DNA of 56,103 bases from Lentilactobacillus sunkii DSM 19904 (lineage in GTDB: Bacteria; Bacillota; Bacilli; Lactobacillales; Lactobacillaceae). The position numbers were made by a program, and so were the translations under genes. Under the pieces are notes generated by a model. The model was not told where the DNA came from and did no database searches. It worked only from the letters and a program-made list of their open reading frames with translations. Below, in pieces: positions 6,672-52,429 of this stretch. The stretch is from NCBI RefSeq assembly GCF_001435575.1, contig NZ_AZEA01000016.1, positions 1 through 56,103 of the forward strand, given 5' to 3'. Positions within the stretch are counted from its first letter, which is position 1. The number at the start of each line of letters is the position of its first letter.

Positions 6672-7721
6672 TTAGTTAATTGAGTAAACCGACCGATTCT
6701 TCAAAGCCGCTTTATAAGCCGCAACAGCCAGGTTGACCTGACCAACACCGTAAAGTTGACTTGTGGCTTTTTTGATGGAGCCTGAATTGTTAACATATCT
6801 CAACATTGCGTATAGTGGAGTGGCTTTCTGACCTGTCCGCATAGCAGTTGAGTTGACATATTTATTGGTGGCAGAATTATTGGATAATGCAATGATCGCC
6901 TCCGCAGTCGAATTGGCGTTGGGCGTGGTTTTGCAGGCATACGTGTAGCCAAAGGCACCATTACCCTGAGCAAGGCTGTACAAGAACTTTTGGCCCTTTT
7001 GAATGCTTGATTCAACAGTTGAAGCTTTAGACTTGCCGCGATACAGACCAGTCAGGACCATACTGGTGACGTCGGAGTCTTTGGCACCTTGGGCATTATT
7101 GTATGTCCAGCCGTTATTGTTCAATTGAGAGTTAACCAATCGGGCACTCAAGCTGGCTTTGCTGAACTTGGCACCGCTGGGCTGCTTGAATCGGCTGCTC
7201 ATTGAAACGGCAATCAAGGTTTCAGCTTGTGAACTGGATGTCTGCTTTGAAACATTTGCATGATAAAGCCGAGAAACAAGATTTGTGCCCTTCTTGTGAT
7301 GATAAAGCTTAAAATTAGTTGCATTCATTCCCATTGCTTGAACCGCCATGACAGCGTTGGCCAAGCTGGCAGAAGTACTGGTGCTTTTAACAACCAAATT
7401 TTTGCGCAACAAATTCTTTTCGTGAGTTGTGAATTTGTAGTGGTTTCCTCTCAACCCAAGCAGAAAATCCGAATAGCCAGATGCCGCACCAGTGTCCGGG
7501 TATAATTTACGGCTAAAAAGGGCACTGGTTTTGCCGGATAATCCGGTCTTGTTTTCTTTCAGCATTTTTTTCGCATAACGATATGTGAGTGCAGTTCGCC
7601 GATGAATCGTGGAAGTCGCAGCTTTATGCACGGAAGCTGCCGTTGCACTGGTAGCGAATGTCATTGTGGCCAAAACCGCAGCTGCAGACACCAAGACATG
7701 TTTCAATAATTTATTCATCAT
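6672..7721 (-). CDS. secreted alpha-helical-repeat protein, intrinsic-factor/transcobalamin N-domain-like
   Basis: A 349-residue exported protein with an N-terminal signal peptide (VSAAAVLATMTFATSATAA, cleavage near residue 29). The mature part has repeated helical blocks with Gly turns and 'AETLIAVSMSS', 'AEAIIALSNNSAT' patterns. These resemble the alpha/alpha barrel of terpenoid-cyclase-like and transcobalamin proteins. It starts 28 bases after the larger protein upstream and shares its cobalamin-riboswitch leader, so a role in corrinoid capture is inferred. It lacks the C-terminal DUF4430 domain and any LPXTG anchor. ATG 7718 is an equally good start; AAAGGA precedes both. Confidence 0.7.
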   Translation of the reverse strand: MMNKLLKHVLVSAAAVLATMTFATSATAASVHKAATSTIHRRTALTYRYAKKMLKENKTGLSGKTSALFSRKLYPDTGAASGYSDFLLGLRGNHYKFTTHEKNLLRKNLVVKSTSTSASLANAVMAVQAMGMNATNFKLYHHKKGTNLVSRLYHANVSKQTSSSQAETLIAVSMSSRFKQPSGAKFSKASLSARLVNSQLNNNGWTYNNAQGAKDSDVTSMVLTGLYRGKSKASTVESSIQKGQKFLYSLAQGNGAFGYTYACKTTPNANSTAEAIIALSNNSATNKYVNSTAMRTGQKATPLYAMLRYVNNSGSIKKATSQLYGVGQVNLAVAAYKAALKNRSVYSIN

Positions 7722-7749
7722 AAATCCTTTCTTTTTAAAAGCTTGAATC

Positions 7750-10056
7750 CTACTTGTTATAGTTCATAGAAATTTTGTCGCCATCCTTGATCGTGTAAGC
7801 ACCCATCGAGGTGTTGGGCTCACTGCCATTGATTGAATACAGCCAACCCGTCATGGTTCCGGCAGGACCTGCATTGTAGCCATTGATGCCTTTGACGTAA
7901 GCGGTAATTCCTGAACCGGTAATTGTCACTGCCAAATTGTTCTTGGCAGCCAATGCCTTCAAGGCATCTAATGCTGTAGCACCTTTGGTAAGGGTGACAC
8001 TTCCACTGGCCAGCACGGATCCGTTGGCATTGACGCTGACAGTGACCGTTTCATTTGTGGTATTGGTATTTGAACCGGAATTATCATTCGTTCCTGAACC
8101 ATTCGTGGAATTGTTATTAGAATTGTTTGTCGATGATCCATTCGTCGGTGTGGTTGGAACTGTTGGTGTAGTCGGAACTGTTGTTGAAGTAGATGACGAT
8201 GAGCTTGGAGTTGTCGGATTAGGGGCAACCGTTGTCGTTGAGCTATCGGCATTTTGACTGCTGGACTTAGTAATCTTGGTAGCCATTACCAACTTCTTAT
8301 TGCCTGAAACGTAACGGCCGTTCGTTAATAACAAGCGGCTTGTGTGACCATAGCCAACAACTTTTCGAACAGCTAACGATTTGTTTTTCTTAACATGATG
8401 CTTTTTATGTGTGAGTTTGAGATTGCTGTATTCGTTGATACCCTTGGAACTAATTGCTTTAATTCGGGTCACTTTAGCAGAATAGTAAGCATTGGATAAA
8501 TACTTACCAGAGGCCAGCGTATAGCCGGTCTTGCCGCTATTAACATTTTTAACCTTATAAACGGTTTTGCCTTGTGTATTGGTGGTCTGTCGGATGACAA
8601 GGAACATCGGGCGTTTGGTTCTGCTTTGCTTGTGATAAGTCGTAACAAGATTATGCTTGGTAAAATGAGTCCCTTTATACAACTTAACCGTGGTTAAAGC
8701 ATAGACGTATGATCCCTTGGCACTCTTGGGCTTCTTTGGAATCGTTGGTTGGACAATTGGTGCAGTCGAACTGCTTGAAGCAGCCGAAGAGATCGACGAA
8801 CTCGATGAACTTGGTTGGTTGATAATTGTGGTGTAATTGTTATTAATGACCGTGCCGCTGGTTGAATTGCTGTTGGCATTGGTATCAACAACTTTGATAT
8901 TGTTAATTGAGGCAACCCCAACTGCCCGGTCGGCAATTGCCGCCTCACTGTTGGTGTCGCCGTTAATCTTGGTAATGTATGTTTCAAGCGTTTGGTTGAT
9001 TGAATTAATTGCTGTTGTTTTATCGGTCTCAGACGACTTCGAGTCATTATTGATGGCCTGTCTTTGAGCGGCTGCAGCATCATTTAATTGTCCCAGTTCA
9101 CGGGCTCTAAATGTTGGATTTTGGGCAAATGAGAAGATCCAGCCCTGGCCACCATCTTTGGTAAATTTAGCCTGTTGCAATGTGTATGTTGCCTGCTGTA
9201 AGAGCATTGAATTGCTGTCGGAAGAAACATCTTTCTGATCCAGCAACTGTTGAACCGGTGCTTTATAGTCGGACTTGCCATTTAATGATGTATAAACATC
9301 AACACCAGCTGCAGCAAGGCCGTTGGTCATGGTGATATTGTTATACTGGTCTTCCTTGTTGGCAGCGTCACTGGTACCAAATCCACCGTCTTTTAGATAG
9401 TAATTATTTTCAACTTCGGTCACTGCTTTTTGAATGGCAGCAGGAACCCCGGGTTGGCTCATGTTCATTGAAAGTGCAAGAATTGCCCGGCCAGTGGGAT
9501 CAACATCTCCCCAGCTGGTTTTCCAAACCCCAGTCTTTGAATCTTGGGCTGCTAATACTTCTTTGGTCAATTCGGTGCGGGCAGCTTCACTGTCCTTGCC
9601 ATAACTACCAGTGCTTAAGCCTTCCAAATCATTGATAATTGTGTATAAATCGACTTTGGCAACTTTTCGCGCAGGATCATTGACCACTTGGGCAGCCAAA
9701 TTCTTCTTTTCAACGTTTTGAGGATCGTTACCAAGTGCCCGAAGCCCAATCATTCCAGCGACGTTTGAAACGCCGGCAAGATCTTGATCCTTCCCGCTGA
9801 TAAAGCCATTTGTGGTAATAATCGTGTTATAGGCATTTTGCGTCTGAGCATCGGTAATCCCGTTATCGCTGGTTGCCAGAATTGCGGCATCCCAGGCATC
9901 AAGCGTCTTCTTTTGGGAAGTCAGCTTAACCCCTGTCGTAATCGCCGAATCCACATCAGCAGCGGTATCTGCTTTGACAAAATTACCGCCACCAATAAAT
10001 AGCAGGAACATCCCTACTACCAGTGATAGCCAATATATAAACTGTTTTTTCTTCAT
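7750..10056 (-). CDS. secreted multidomain surface protein with intrinsic-factor-like alpha barrel and DUF4430 domain
   Basis: A 768-residue exported protein. In order it has a signal peptide (1-30), a helical alpha/alpha-barrel region (about 30-310, with GRAILALSMNM and GGFGTSDAA), a charged helical DUF1542-like stretch (about 320-390) and an SSS-rich linker. Next come a basic DUF5776-like wall-binding region (about 445-595) and a Ser/Thr/Asn linker. Last is a C-terminal DUF4430 domain (about 670-768, ending with TGWLYSING and AYTIKDGDKISMNY). Helical barrel plus DUF4430 is the architecture of intrinsic factor and transcobalamin. A cobalamin riboswitch precedes it, so it is inferred to be a corrinoid-binding surface protein. 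GGAGGAG with an 8-base spacer selects ATG 10056 over an upstream TTG. Confidence 0.8.
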   Translation of the reverse strand: MKKKQFIYWLSLVVGMFLLFIGGGNFVKADTAADVDSAITTGVKLTSQKKTLDAWDAAILATSDNGITDAQTQNAYNTIITTNGFISGKDQDLAGVSNVAGMIGLRALGNDPQNVEKKNLAAQVVNDPARKVAKVDLYTIINDLEGLSTGSYGKDSEAARTELTKEVLAAQDSKTGVWKTSWGDVDPTGRAILALSMNMSQPGVPAAIQKAVTEVENNYYLKDGGFGTSDAANKEDQYNNITMTNGLAAAGVDVYTSLNGKSDYKAPVQQLLDQKDVSSDSNSMLLQQATYTLQQAKFTKDGGQGWIFSFAQNPTFRARELGQLNDAAAAQRQAINNDSKSSETDKTTAINSINQTLETYITKINGDTNSEAAIADRAVGVASINNIKVVDTNANSNSTSGTVINNNYTTIINQPSSSSSSISSAASSSSTAPIVQPTIPKKPKSAKGSYVYALTTVKLYKGTHFTKHNLVTTYHKQSRTKRPMFLVIRQTTNTQGKTVYKVKNVNSGKTGYTLASGKYLSNAYYSAKVTRIKAISSKGINEYSNLKLTHKKHHVKKNKSLAVRKVVGYGHTSRLLLTNGRYVSGNKKLVMATKITKSSSQNADSSTTTVAPNPTTPSSSSSTSTTVPTTPTVPTTPTNGSSTNNSNNNSTNGSGTNDNSGSNTNTTNETVTVSVNANGSVLASGSVTLTKGATALDALKALAAKNNLAVTITGSGITAYVKGINGYNAGPAGTMTGWLYSINGSEPNTSMGAYTIKDGDKISMNYNK

Positions 10057-10122
10057 GCGTCTGTTCTCCTCCAATAATCCAATAGTGATGAAACCTCAAC
10101 AAGACAAACAATTGAACACAAC

Positions 10123-10155
10123 AAAAAAGCCCGGCTAGTATTAACTAGCCAGGGC
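10123..10155 (-). terminator. riboswitch expression-platform terminator
   Basis: Stem GCCC.GGCTAGT/ACTAGCC(A)GGGC with a 4-base loop is followed by TTTTTT on the minus strand. It lies between the cobalamin aptamer and the start codon at 10056, the expected place for a transcription-attenuation platform. Confidence 0.85.
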
Positions 10156-10199
10156 CGCTTCTTTAATCACTAATAACCTAAATTCAGACATTGAATTTG

Positions 10200-10417
10200 A
10201 ACACACGAAATATCCGATAGATACGCTATTAATTGACAAAGCCGACCCTAAGAAGCTTTGCAATCGGCATAACAAACGTATCCTGACTTGATCTCTTCCT
10301 ACAACTGTCCTCTTTCCAGTGTGAACCAGTGAGTTGTGACAGCTTCGTCAATCTTACAGTAGCGAAGGGGCTGTAAAGGTTTTTCACCTTTTTCCGTTTT
10401 ATTATGCTTCTTAACAT
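10200..10417 (-). promoter_or_regulatory. cobalamin (B12) riboswitch aptamer
   Basis: Read on the minus strand, the leader shows the conserved landmarks in order: GGTGAAAAACC (10388-10378), the B12-box-like CAGCCCCTTCGCTACTGTAA, CACTGGAAAGAGG and AAGTCAGGATACG (10290-10278). An outer helix using AAGCTTCTTAGGG follows. Spacing and order match the adenosyl/methyl-cobalamin class. High cobalamin would be expected to favour the downstream terminator and switch off both secreted-protein genes. The 62-codon frame inside it is not a gene. Confidence 0.92.
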
Positions 10418-10422
10418 AGAAA

Positions 10423-10431
10423 ATTATAGCA
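10423..10431 (-). promoter_or_regulatory. extended -10 promoter for the cobalamin leader
   Basis: TGCTATAAT on the minus strand is a perfect extended -10 element, six to eight bases before the predicted 5' end of the riboswitch. No strong -35 box is evident. Confidence 0.65.
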
Positions 10432-10504
10432 TATCATGAGGAATAGTTTATGGGATTTCGAGAAATTAATTACTGATAAGAATCATATTAAGATAACTCA
10501 ATAA

Positions 10505-10534
10505 TAAAAACCGCCCGGTAGTTTACCAGACGGT
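10505..10534 (-). terminator. terminator of the secreted-protein gene
   Basis: ACCGcCcGGTA (10510-10520) pairs with TACCaGaCGGT (10524-10534), followed by TTTTT on the minus strand, 22 bases after the gene end at 10556. Confidence 0.8.
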
Positions 10535-10555
10535 CATTTAAAAGTTATCAAGAGC

Positions 10556-11098
10556 CTAGTTAGACCATTTCCACGTTGGGTTCCAACCAACCTTGCTCAA
10601 TTTGTGATGAAGATCATTAACTTTCCCAAGATAATACTTGTTGTTTTTAAAATATTGAATAACAAATTGCTTTTTCTTTTGTGGTACAAAGTAACTGTAT
10701 GAAGCATCCAAAGTATCTCGGAAACTGTTATTTACAACTTTAGTTGAATGTGCTTTCACGACCACCGACTTTGTTGGCTGAAAGACAGGTCGATCATATA
10801 ATCGATAACCACTCAAGTTGGCAAACCATAGCTTTGAGAAATAAAATTTTACGTTGTATTCACTCCTATTTTGAATCTTGGTATCATATACGGCAACGCT
10901 TCCCAAGGCCTCATGGAGTTTATCCGAAACATGACTCAGTCGTTTATTAAAACGAAACTTAAAATTAATATGATCATTCTGGCTTGAGCGTGCCAAAGCC
11001 CCATAGTTAACAGTACTTGCATTCGCCGCGGTTGGGATAAGAAGTAAGGTTCCCATTGCTACGGTAAGAATTATTAGCGACTTATGATTTCTTGTCAT
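10556..11098 (-). CDS. secreted protein of unknown function, 180 residues
   Basis: An N-terminal signal peptide (basic MTRNHKS, then LIILTVAMGTLLLIPTAANA) precedes a mature part rich in Lys, Tyr, Phe and Asn, ending GWNPTWKWSN. This is typical of small secreted lactobacillus proteins with a beta-rich domain. The frame extends to 11152, but ATG 11098 has AAGGGGA 8 bases upstream and begins the signal peptide. It sits alone between its terminator and a 535-bp intergenic repeat region. No family is recognised. Confidence 0.72.
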   Translation of the reverse strand: MTRNHKSLIILTVAMGTLLLIPTAANASTVNYGALARSSQNDHINFKFRFNKRLSHVSDKLHEALGSVAVYDTKIQNRSEYNVKFYFSKLWFANLSGYRLYDRPVFQPTKSVVVKAHSTKVVNNSFRDTLDASYSYFVPQKKKQFVIQYFKNNKYYLGKVNDLHHKLSKVGWNPTWKWSN

Positions 11099-44146: not shown

Positions 44147-44294
44147 ATTCATTTCCTCCAATATTTTCGCTTTTGCCATCAGTGTAATTGAACCTCGGCA
44201 AAATGTATAGAAGTATTTCCTGCTTGACTTTCATATTGTAACCGGTTATAAATAAGTCATGAGCTTGAATTGAATCAAGCCTAACTGAATATTT

Positions 44295-44370
44295 CGTCTG
44301 GGGTGCCTGAAATGGCTGAGATTATACCCATCGAACCTGATGTAGTTTGGACTGCCGAAGGAAGAGCGAA
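44295..44370 (+). promoter_or_regulatory. TPP riboswitch (THI box) 1
   Basis: The conserved TPP aptamer elements appear in order: GGGGTGCC, GGCTGAGA, TACCC, GAACCTGATGTAGTT and ACTGCCGAAGGAA. It precedes the thiS operon on the + strand and should switch the operon off when thiamine diphosphate is plentiful. Confidence 0.96.
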
Positions 44371-44399
44371 TTTAACGTCGATTTTATAATGACTTTAAA

Positions 44400-51424: not shown

Positions 51425-51487
51425 GCTTAATTGTTGCGCATGTCTGCCTGACGTGATACTATAAACTGTGGAATGAAAAATGAATAA

Positions 51488-51645
51488 AGCTGTTAGGTGA
51501 GGCTCCTATGTGAAAAATGCTACTGCTCAGAAACGTCGAAAGACGCCAATGAGTCAGCTGTCCCAGTCAAAGTAAGGCTAGGACTAATGTGGCTGTTAAT
51601 TATTAACTACATCACATAGTGCTAAAGCTCAACGACTGGCGTAAG
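51488..51645 (+). promoter_or_regulatory. M-box (ykoK) magnesium riboswitch
   Basis: The M-box landmarks occur in order: CTGTTAGGTGAGGCTCCTAT, GCTACTGCTCAGAAACGTCG, AAAGACGCCAATGAGTCAGC, TAAGGCTAGG and finally GTGCTAAAGCTCAACG. Length and order match the class. It would stop transcription when Mg2+ is sufficient. No intact magnesium transporter gene follows. Confidence 0.92.
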
Positions 51646-51653
51646 TGTTTTTG

Positions 51654-52238: not shown

Positions 52239-52326
52239 TGTCCGGAGCATCAACAGTCTGCTTGACTTTTACCCGCGTTTCGTGTGTAATACAAATGTAC
52301 ATTAATTAAATCAATCATTTTGTGGT

Positions 52327-52396
52327 CTGGGGCGCTGAAAACAGCTGAGAAATACCCATGGAACCTGATGCAGTTAATACTGCCGTAGGGAGACCC
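52327..52396 (+). promoter_or_regulatory. TPP riboswitch (THI box) 2
   Basis: The aptamer elements are TCTGGGGCGCT, AGCTGAGA, ATACCC, GAACCTGATGCAGTTAATACTG and CCGTAGGGA. It lies upstream of tenA1 on the + strand. Confidence 0.95.
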
Positions 52397-52429
52397 ATTT
52401 TAGTCAATCAGCTTTTGTGAAAATGACTG

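Follow-up and report, generated by a model that had tools for sequence, protein, structure and literature searches.

Candidate corrinoid capture proteins encoded behind a cobalamin riboswitch in Lentilactobacillus sunkii, and their probable link to an ECF-CbrT importer

In the animal B12 carriers transcobalamin, intrinsic factor and haptocorrin, an N-terminal alpha/alpha toroid is combined with a C-terminal beta-grasp domain, and a sandwich of one B12 between the two is known for transcobalamin (PMC1796856); the DUF4430 domain is found at the C-terminus of the TCN proteins (PMC4350170). Burroughs et al. (2007) proposed that bacterial toroid+SLBB proteins sandwich B12 in this way, predicted them to be B12 scavengers in Gram-positives, and noted CbiO/CbiQ neighbours, a second SLBB protein and the absence of key B12 synthesis enzymes (PMC1796856). 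The stretch analysed here (the window) comprises 56,103 nucleotides of Lentilactobacillus sunkii DSM 19904 (contig NZ_AZEA01000016.1) and carries, on the minus strand, a cobalamin riboswitch followed by the genes of two proteins, P0001 and P0002. It is quite probable that these form a B12-repressed, wall-associated corrinoid capture system, which feeds a dedicated importer of the energy-coupling factor (ECF) type, ECF-CbrT.

Like the proteins of Burroughs et al., P0001 appears to be exported and to fuse a toroid to a transcobalamin-type beta-grasp domain (PMC1796856). Those proteins often share an operon with a second extracellular SLBB protein and CbiO/CbiQ, whereas the capture pair described here is encoded apart from the importer, in a separate operon with a cobalamin riboswitch, the second protein is a toroid that lacks SLBB, and the S component is CbrT-like; the word riboswitch is absent from the available text of that paper (PMC1796856). 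Toroid+SLBB scavengers are therefore already known as a prediction (PMC1796856), and what is new, as far as found, is that the capture genes form an operon of their own under riboswitch control, that the carrier is divided between toroid and beta-domain proteins, and that there is a link to CbrT. The predicted domain order is that of the animal carriers, which are also the top Foldseek match of both protein models. Unlike them, P0001 has ~370 residues (helices, an SH3-like domain and a linker) between its two domains, is free of cysteine, has no PF01122 match and is probably held in the wall. As in Lactobacillus delbrueckii, a CbrT-like S component occurs together with the B12-dependent ribonucleotide reductase RTPR and an adenosyltransferase in the genome; the delbrueckii protein uses a shared group II module, and the available text describes no extracellular binding protein for it (PMC5997447). 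In contrast, the T component and ATPase are here encoded beside S, along with toroid and DUF4430 proteins. The fold of the Bacteroides protein BtuG differs from that predicted for the capture proteins. BtuG (PMC6143338) and BtuH (PMC8941943) are comparable as surface-exposed corrinoid capture proteins linked to a transporter, although BtuG belongs to a Gram-negative, in which it is a lipoprotein of the outer membrane and cooperates with BtuB (PMC6143338).

The features of the operon are the following.

10256..10451, minus strand: cobalamin riboswitch aptamer, RF00174 (covariance-model match, 72.7 bits, E 4.6e-16)
10169..10233, minus strand: helix predicted in the interval from aptamer to terminator, with arms AUUAAUAGC and GUUAUUAGU
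10130..10153, minus strand: intrinsic terminator of the riboswitch expression platform, a 10-pair stem followed by a T run
7750..10056, minus strand: P0001, 768 amino acids, putatively exported, ATG at 10056 after GGAGGAG
P0001 residues ~1-30: putative signal peptide
P0001 residues ~31-320: alpha/alpha toroid-like region (low-confidence model and profile match to P0002-type toroids)
P0001 residues 323-389: DUF1542-like helices, just under the Pfam cut-off (23.6 vs 24.3 bits)
P0001 residues ~446-595: SH3-like/DUF5776 region (DUF5776 at 524-590, Pfam, E 1.5e-13)
P0001, between the SH3-like/DUF5776 region and DUF4430: linker rich in S, T and N
P0001 residues 692-767: DUF4430 (PF14478), E 5.1e-15, 56.1 vs 23.8 bits
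6672..7721, minus strand: P0002, 349 amino acids, putatively exported, toroid-only

A full cobalamin aptamer had been claimed in an earlier reading of this DNA (the sequence-only reading), and the Infernal match bears this out: it covers the whole model (1-189), scores 72.7 bits against a gathering score of 31.5, and reaches 20 bases past the end given there. Nothing else in the 2.69 Mb genome matches RF00174 at E<=0.001, and on this result the idea of another cobalamin riboswitch next to the importer genes was rejected. The terminator platform, likewise expected, is present ~100 nucleotides past the aptamer and ~70 nucleotides ahead of the P0001 start codon. An equivalent hairpin with a T run precedes the start codon in all six leaders compared, at 37 to 72 nucleotides in five and 183 in one (for L003 the start codon was assumed). 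The fold of the leader alignment, from which the short stretch of L038 was left out, contains 85 predicted pairs, 14 of them with a two-sided change in at least one sequence. The helix between aptamer and terminator comprises 9 pairs (alignment columns 223-231 with 281-289), shows one-sided changes only and one broken cell, and is possibly part of the switching platform. B12 riboswitches with terminators are usually off-switches, and by analogy cobalamin would turn this leader off by terminating transcription.

Both proteins begin with signal-peptide-like segments, judged by eye rather than with a predictor, in agreement with the two exported proteins of the sequence-only reading; their genes are 28 nucleotides apart. 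P0001 meets DUF4430 well above the Pfam gathering score. The wall-binding DUF5776-like region proposed earlier is also found, within a segment (residues 446-595) of net charge +30; DUF5776 is SH3-related, with binding unproven (PMC12208459), and a DUF5776 domain from one endolysin has served as the binder of a test system (PMC11674121). Neither P0001 nor P0002 shows an LPXTG signal or a lipobox. P0002 has one cysteine and, without its signal peptide, a net charge of +34. No Pfam family, lectin or other, matches it at E<=1, and its NCBIfam match lies far under the cut-off (23.5 vs 300 bits); a literature search on SCO2321-SCO2324, to which that match led, turned up nothing related to this system. 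Among 398 genomes of the same class a full-length P0002-type match occurs only in L. sunkii itself; the matches in 33 others are weaker and partial, and lie in open frames 328 to 1830 amino acids long.

The P0001-P0002 pair stands behind the aptamer in all five loci from named Lentilactobacillus genomes, the closest being that of L. kefiri (P0002 91%, P0001 88%). In 24 genomes of the genus there are 13 aptamers above the cut-off, 12 of which have a P0001-type gene downstream (the exception is G355:C60), and in 11 of these 12 operons, four of them known from match coordinates rather than annotated stretches, a P0002-type gene comes next. The P0001 frame of G278:C30 is without its first 83 residues. 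The third gene in 5 of the 12 operons encodes a DUF4430 protein (frame of 249-263 residues, N-terminal hydrophobic segment by eye), which the window operon does not have. In G180 (L046:5107-6468) an oppositely oriented gene behind P0001 is similar to the P0001 DUF5776 region. Twelve weaker PF14478 hits (E 3e-8 to 5e-5) lie in frames of 360-407 amino acids, on contigs some of which also carry pdu genes; the frame of one, L038:1799-2860, matches AraC-type helix-turn-helix families, which fits the mention of AraC-SLBB regulators in Burroughs et al. (PMC1796856).

An unlinked importer had been expected for the hand-over, and a CbrT-like importer locus is found on contig C2 of the same genome, in the order ECF T, double ATPase, S, P0002 paralogue (51% to P0002), DUF4430 protein. 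The S component (C2:69906-70586) is the only CbrT-like match in the genome; it matches PDB 6FNP chain A with E 5.3e-10, and PF12822 and PF07155 are over their cut-offs. The entry 6FNP is that of ECF-CbrT (PMC5997447), and its chain A (182 amino acids, labelled just 'Membrane protein') is taken as CbrT. The ATPase contains a double ABC_tran domain. T has no Pfam hit at 1e-5 itself and is 47% identical to the T of locus L069 and 31% to that of L047, the latter matching CbiQ. The DUF4430 protein shows an N-terminal hydrophobic segment, which we infer by eye to be a membrane tether, and a long basic linker. Just upstream of this operon (L082:11246-13220) lie genes for a pentapeptide-repeat protein and a cytosine/purine-type permease; similar-looking genes occur in several other genomes of the genus.

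Relatives place the same protein types in one operon with the ECF-CbrT genes. Seventeen genomes of the genus have a strong S match (best E 1e-30 or lower), and in the annotated stretches of 14 of them the genes come in the order T, ATPase, S, toroid, DUF4430. G326 has no DUF4430 in the importer stretch, G264 has another gene order and a P0001-type toroid, and the G364 stretch is outside the annotated set; in G278 the S frame of that importer copy is broken and a second S is intact. In the genus g25 (L047, L048), a cobalamin aptamer precedes genes for a two-toroid-type protein, DUF4430, T, ATPase and a CbrT-like S component (in L047, E 2e-14 to 6FNP chain A). The two-toroid protein of L047 ends in MucBP repeats and an LPQTG signal. 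Since both toroid types are fused in one g25 protein, it is suggested that they act together.

The genome encodes RTPR (E 2.6e-254) and a cobalamin adenosyltransferase (E 9.2e-52), and has no CbiD match. Diol dehydratase was rejected as the B12 user here, PF02286 being absent from this genome and present in 9 of 24 genus genomes; PF02310 enzymes (MetH, mutases) gave no match in the 24. Because RTPR and the adenosyltransferase are present while diol dehydratase, PF02310 and CbiD are unmatched, the organism is probably auxotrophic for B12 and has RTPR as one of the main users (ethanolamine ammonia-lyase lay outside the search). P0002-type toroid, DUF4430, strong CbrT-like S and RTPR occur in an identical set of 17 of the 24 genus genomes. 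The remaining 7 are without toroid, DUF4430 and RTPR, and their S matches are no better than E 2.4e-6 (22 of the 24 have an S match at E<=0.01). For toroid against RTPR the Fisher p is 2.9e-6, uncorrected for shared descent. At the family level (397 genomes) RTPR is present in 35 of 40 strong toroid genomes and in 65 of 357 others, so that presence of the toroid is predictive of B12 use, but many genomes that use B12 do without it. For these counts four toroid genomes with E above 1e-20 (G261, G370, G371, G394) were moved out (44 to 40) and three below-cut-off RTPR matches (G027, G064, G166) left out (103 to 100). The terminator in all six leaders, together with the tie of toroid and DUF4430 to CbrT-like genes and RTPR, places an expression platform ahead of a gene of the B12 economy.

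The toroids, which have no Pfam match, are the weakest point of the domain reading. The alpha/alpha-barrel combined with DUF4430 in the larger protein, as claimed earlier, is clear for DUF4430 and rests for the barrel on a low-confidence model and a profile match; the barrel-only nature of the second protein agrees with the match between the two toroid families. In hhalign the P0001-type and P0002-type profiles align with 97.8% probability (E 1e-12, 175 columns), compared with 0.3% for earlier, shallow alignments. In Foldseek comparisons with 350,542 PDB chains, a ranking that gives weak support only, the low-confidence P0002 model places transcobalamin 2v3n at rank 1 (E 5.2e-3; transcobalamin chains are 6 of the top 10) and the P0001 model, also of low confidence, places transcobalamin 8ixu there (E 3.1e-3; 5 of the top 10). 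The transcobalamin/intrinsic factor family has conserved disulfides, which P0001 and P0002, with no and one cysteine, do not share. P0001 may work like a transcobalamin, yet it is not placed in that family because the PF01122 signature and the cysteines are missing.

Relatives of P0002 are also found on seven plasmid records, from Levilactobacillus brevis (4), Lactiplantibacillus plantarum, Lentilactobacillus kefiri and Lactobacillus kefiranofaciens. Six of the seven (NZ_CP145108, NZ_CP145112, NZ_CP029972, NZ_CP013155, NZ_CP103393, NZ_CP113120) bear the label 'fucose-binding lectin II', which is probably a misannotation. Plasmid pMF1298-5 of L. plantarum carries the same ECF T, ATPase and S genes with toroid and DUF4430 genes; the available part of its description names CbrV/U/T, NrdJ, CobA, CblT, CblS, CobS and CobC, not the toroid or DUF4430 (PMC6722938). 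On pDH5 of L. kefiri the genes for ECF T, ATPase and S are oriented divergently to the capture operon, which encodes a DUF5776 protein, a toroid and DUF4430, and after S comes a 210-base gene labelled hypothetical; at a similar place in G109:C50 the contig ends inside a toroid start (residues 1-67). The toroid gene of locus L098 is a mosaic (L098:7340-7380), in which an importer-type N-terminus is joined to a capture-type body. Alignment columns 21-70 show 88% identity to an importer-type toroid and ~30% to toroids of the capture type; from column 121 onwards, identity to the capture-type toroid of L038 is 86-100% per window. This looks like recombination between capture and importer operons, and as such suggests that the two toroids are interchangeable. 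Locus L089 resembles L098 and matches L. plantarum and Lev. brevis plasmids at 99.8-100%.

The proposed mechanism is built on the observed aptamer, terminator, domain content, importer genes and co-occurrence. At low cellular cobalamin, the RF00174 leader would let transcription past the terminator, and the two secreted proteins would be made. The basic SH3-like/DUF5776 region of P0001 would keep this protein in the wall, and corrinoid would be bound between its N-terminal toroid and C-terminal DUF4430 beta-grasp, as in transcobalamin and intrinsic factor. P0002, a strongly basic toroid, may be kept in the wall by charge and may pair with DUF4430 from P0001 or from the membrane-tethered DUF4430 protein beside the importer; as a toroid and a DUF4430 protein are also encoded at the importer locus itself, binding by P0002 as a single domain is not required. 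The importer encoded on contig C2, a dedicated ECF-CbrT, would then take over the cargo, which once adenosylated would serve RTPR. On the whole, the interpretation given in the sequence-only reading is supported.

A bolder arrangement, with somewhat less than an even chance of being right, is an intrinsic factor split into modules, which would give the ECF transporter an extracellular binding stage. Above the CbrT-like S component, B12 would be enclosed in trans by toroid-only proteins and the membrane-tethered DUF4430, whose basic linker on C2 exceeds 100 residues, with the wall-held P0001 as the outer relay. ECF transporters have been described with a membrane-embedded S component replacing the soluble binding protein (PMC12075633). 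If the capture reading is true, food lactobacilli catch B12 with proteins like the human carriers, made on B12 demand, and hand it to an importer of a class described as working without soluble binding proteins. In the open-access literature no experimental work on these proteins was found (most subscription journals are uncovered, and not every search was aimed at them).

Several observations weigh against the capture reading. Corrinoid binding by the two proteins is a prediction, and the promoter claimed earlier is not recovered, as a scan for consensus sites finds nothing sigma-70-like at 10451-10540 of the minus strand. P0001 has no cysteines, PF01122 is unmatched by P0001 and P0002 at E<=1, and transcobalamin is not among the PDB sequence matches of P0001 or of the DUF4430, P0001-toroid and P0002-toroid profiles. 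The AlphaFold models, built on alignments of six sequences each (window and five related loci), are weak (mean pLDDT, the predicted local distance difference test, 58.7 and 45.0), and no Foldseek match reaches E 0.001, with terpene cyclase and GH76 chains close behind; the resemblance to transcobalamin foreseen earlier thus stands as a first rank for both models, but not as a significant match. G180 has P0001 without P0002 behind the aptamer. The co-occurrence counts are uncorrected for shared descent, completeness is <90% in three of the seven negative genomes of the genus, G364 has its reductase and S component in split frames, and G380 (83% complete) has adenosyltransferase, CbiD and a fragmented diol dehydratase but no toroid. 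In the family, five strong-toroid genomes are without RTPR and 65 RTPR genomes without a strong toroid. DUF4430 is also present in the control genome Lactococcus lactis, so that DUF4430 alone is no proof of B12; our confidence in the capture reading was slightly lowered on this account, and that in another ligand raised.

The plasmid labels would make P0002 a fucose-binding lectin and the operon a source of adhesins, but the lack of any Pfam family, on which this was rejected, the helical (low-confidence) P0002 model and the context of B12 riboswitch and importer leave it hardly any credence. An enzyme or wall-remodelling system is very improbable as well. Alpha/alpha toroids occur in terpene cyclases and glycoside hydrolases too, squalene cyclase-like chains are the best PDB match of the P0002-toroid profile (E 0.0017), and GH76 and cyclase chains rank near transcobalamin in Foldseek; cyclases act inside cells, however, whereas the proteins here have export-type starts, pair with DUF4430 and belong with a B12 riboswitch and a CbrT operon. 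Somewhat more weight, though still that of an unlikely case, is due to a ligand other than B12 (cobinamide or some further fragment of a corrinoid, dimethylbenzimidazole, heme or cobalt), the riboswitch merely linking the operon to the B12 economy. Cobalamin binding by the capture proteins is itself a prediction, DUF4430 occurs in L. lactis, other ligands were suggested for archaeal SLBB proteins (PMC1796856), and CbrT also carries cobinamide (PMC5997447). Against this, toroid and DUF4430 genes adjoin the CbrT-like S component and track the B12-dependent enzyme in 17 of 17 and 7 of 7 genomes of the genus.

Other features of the window include a gene upstream of the aptamer.

10556-11098, minus strand: P0003, 180 amino acids, signal-peptide-like start

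P0003 matches no Pfam family at E<=1 and has its own terminator-like site at 10535-10509. The window further contains an M-box magnesium riboswitch and two thiamine pyrophosphate (TPP) riboswitches, at 51482-51647, 52318-52408 and 44289-44381, all on the plus strand.

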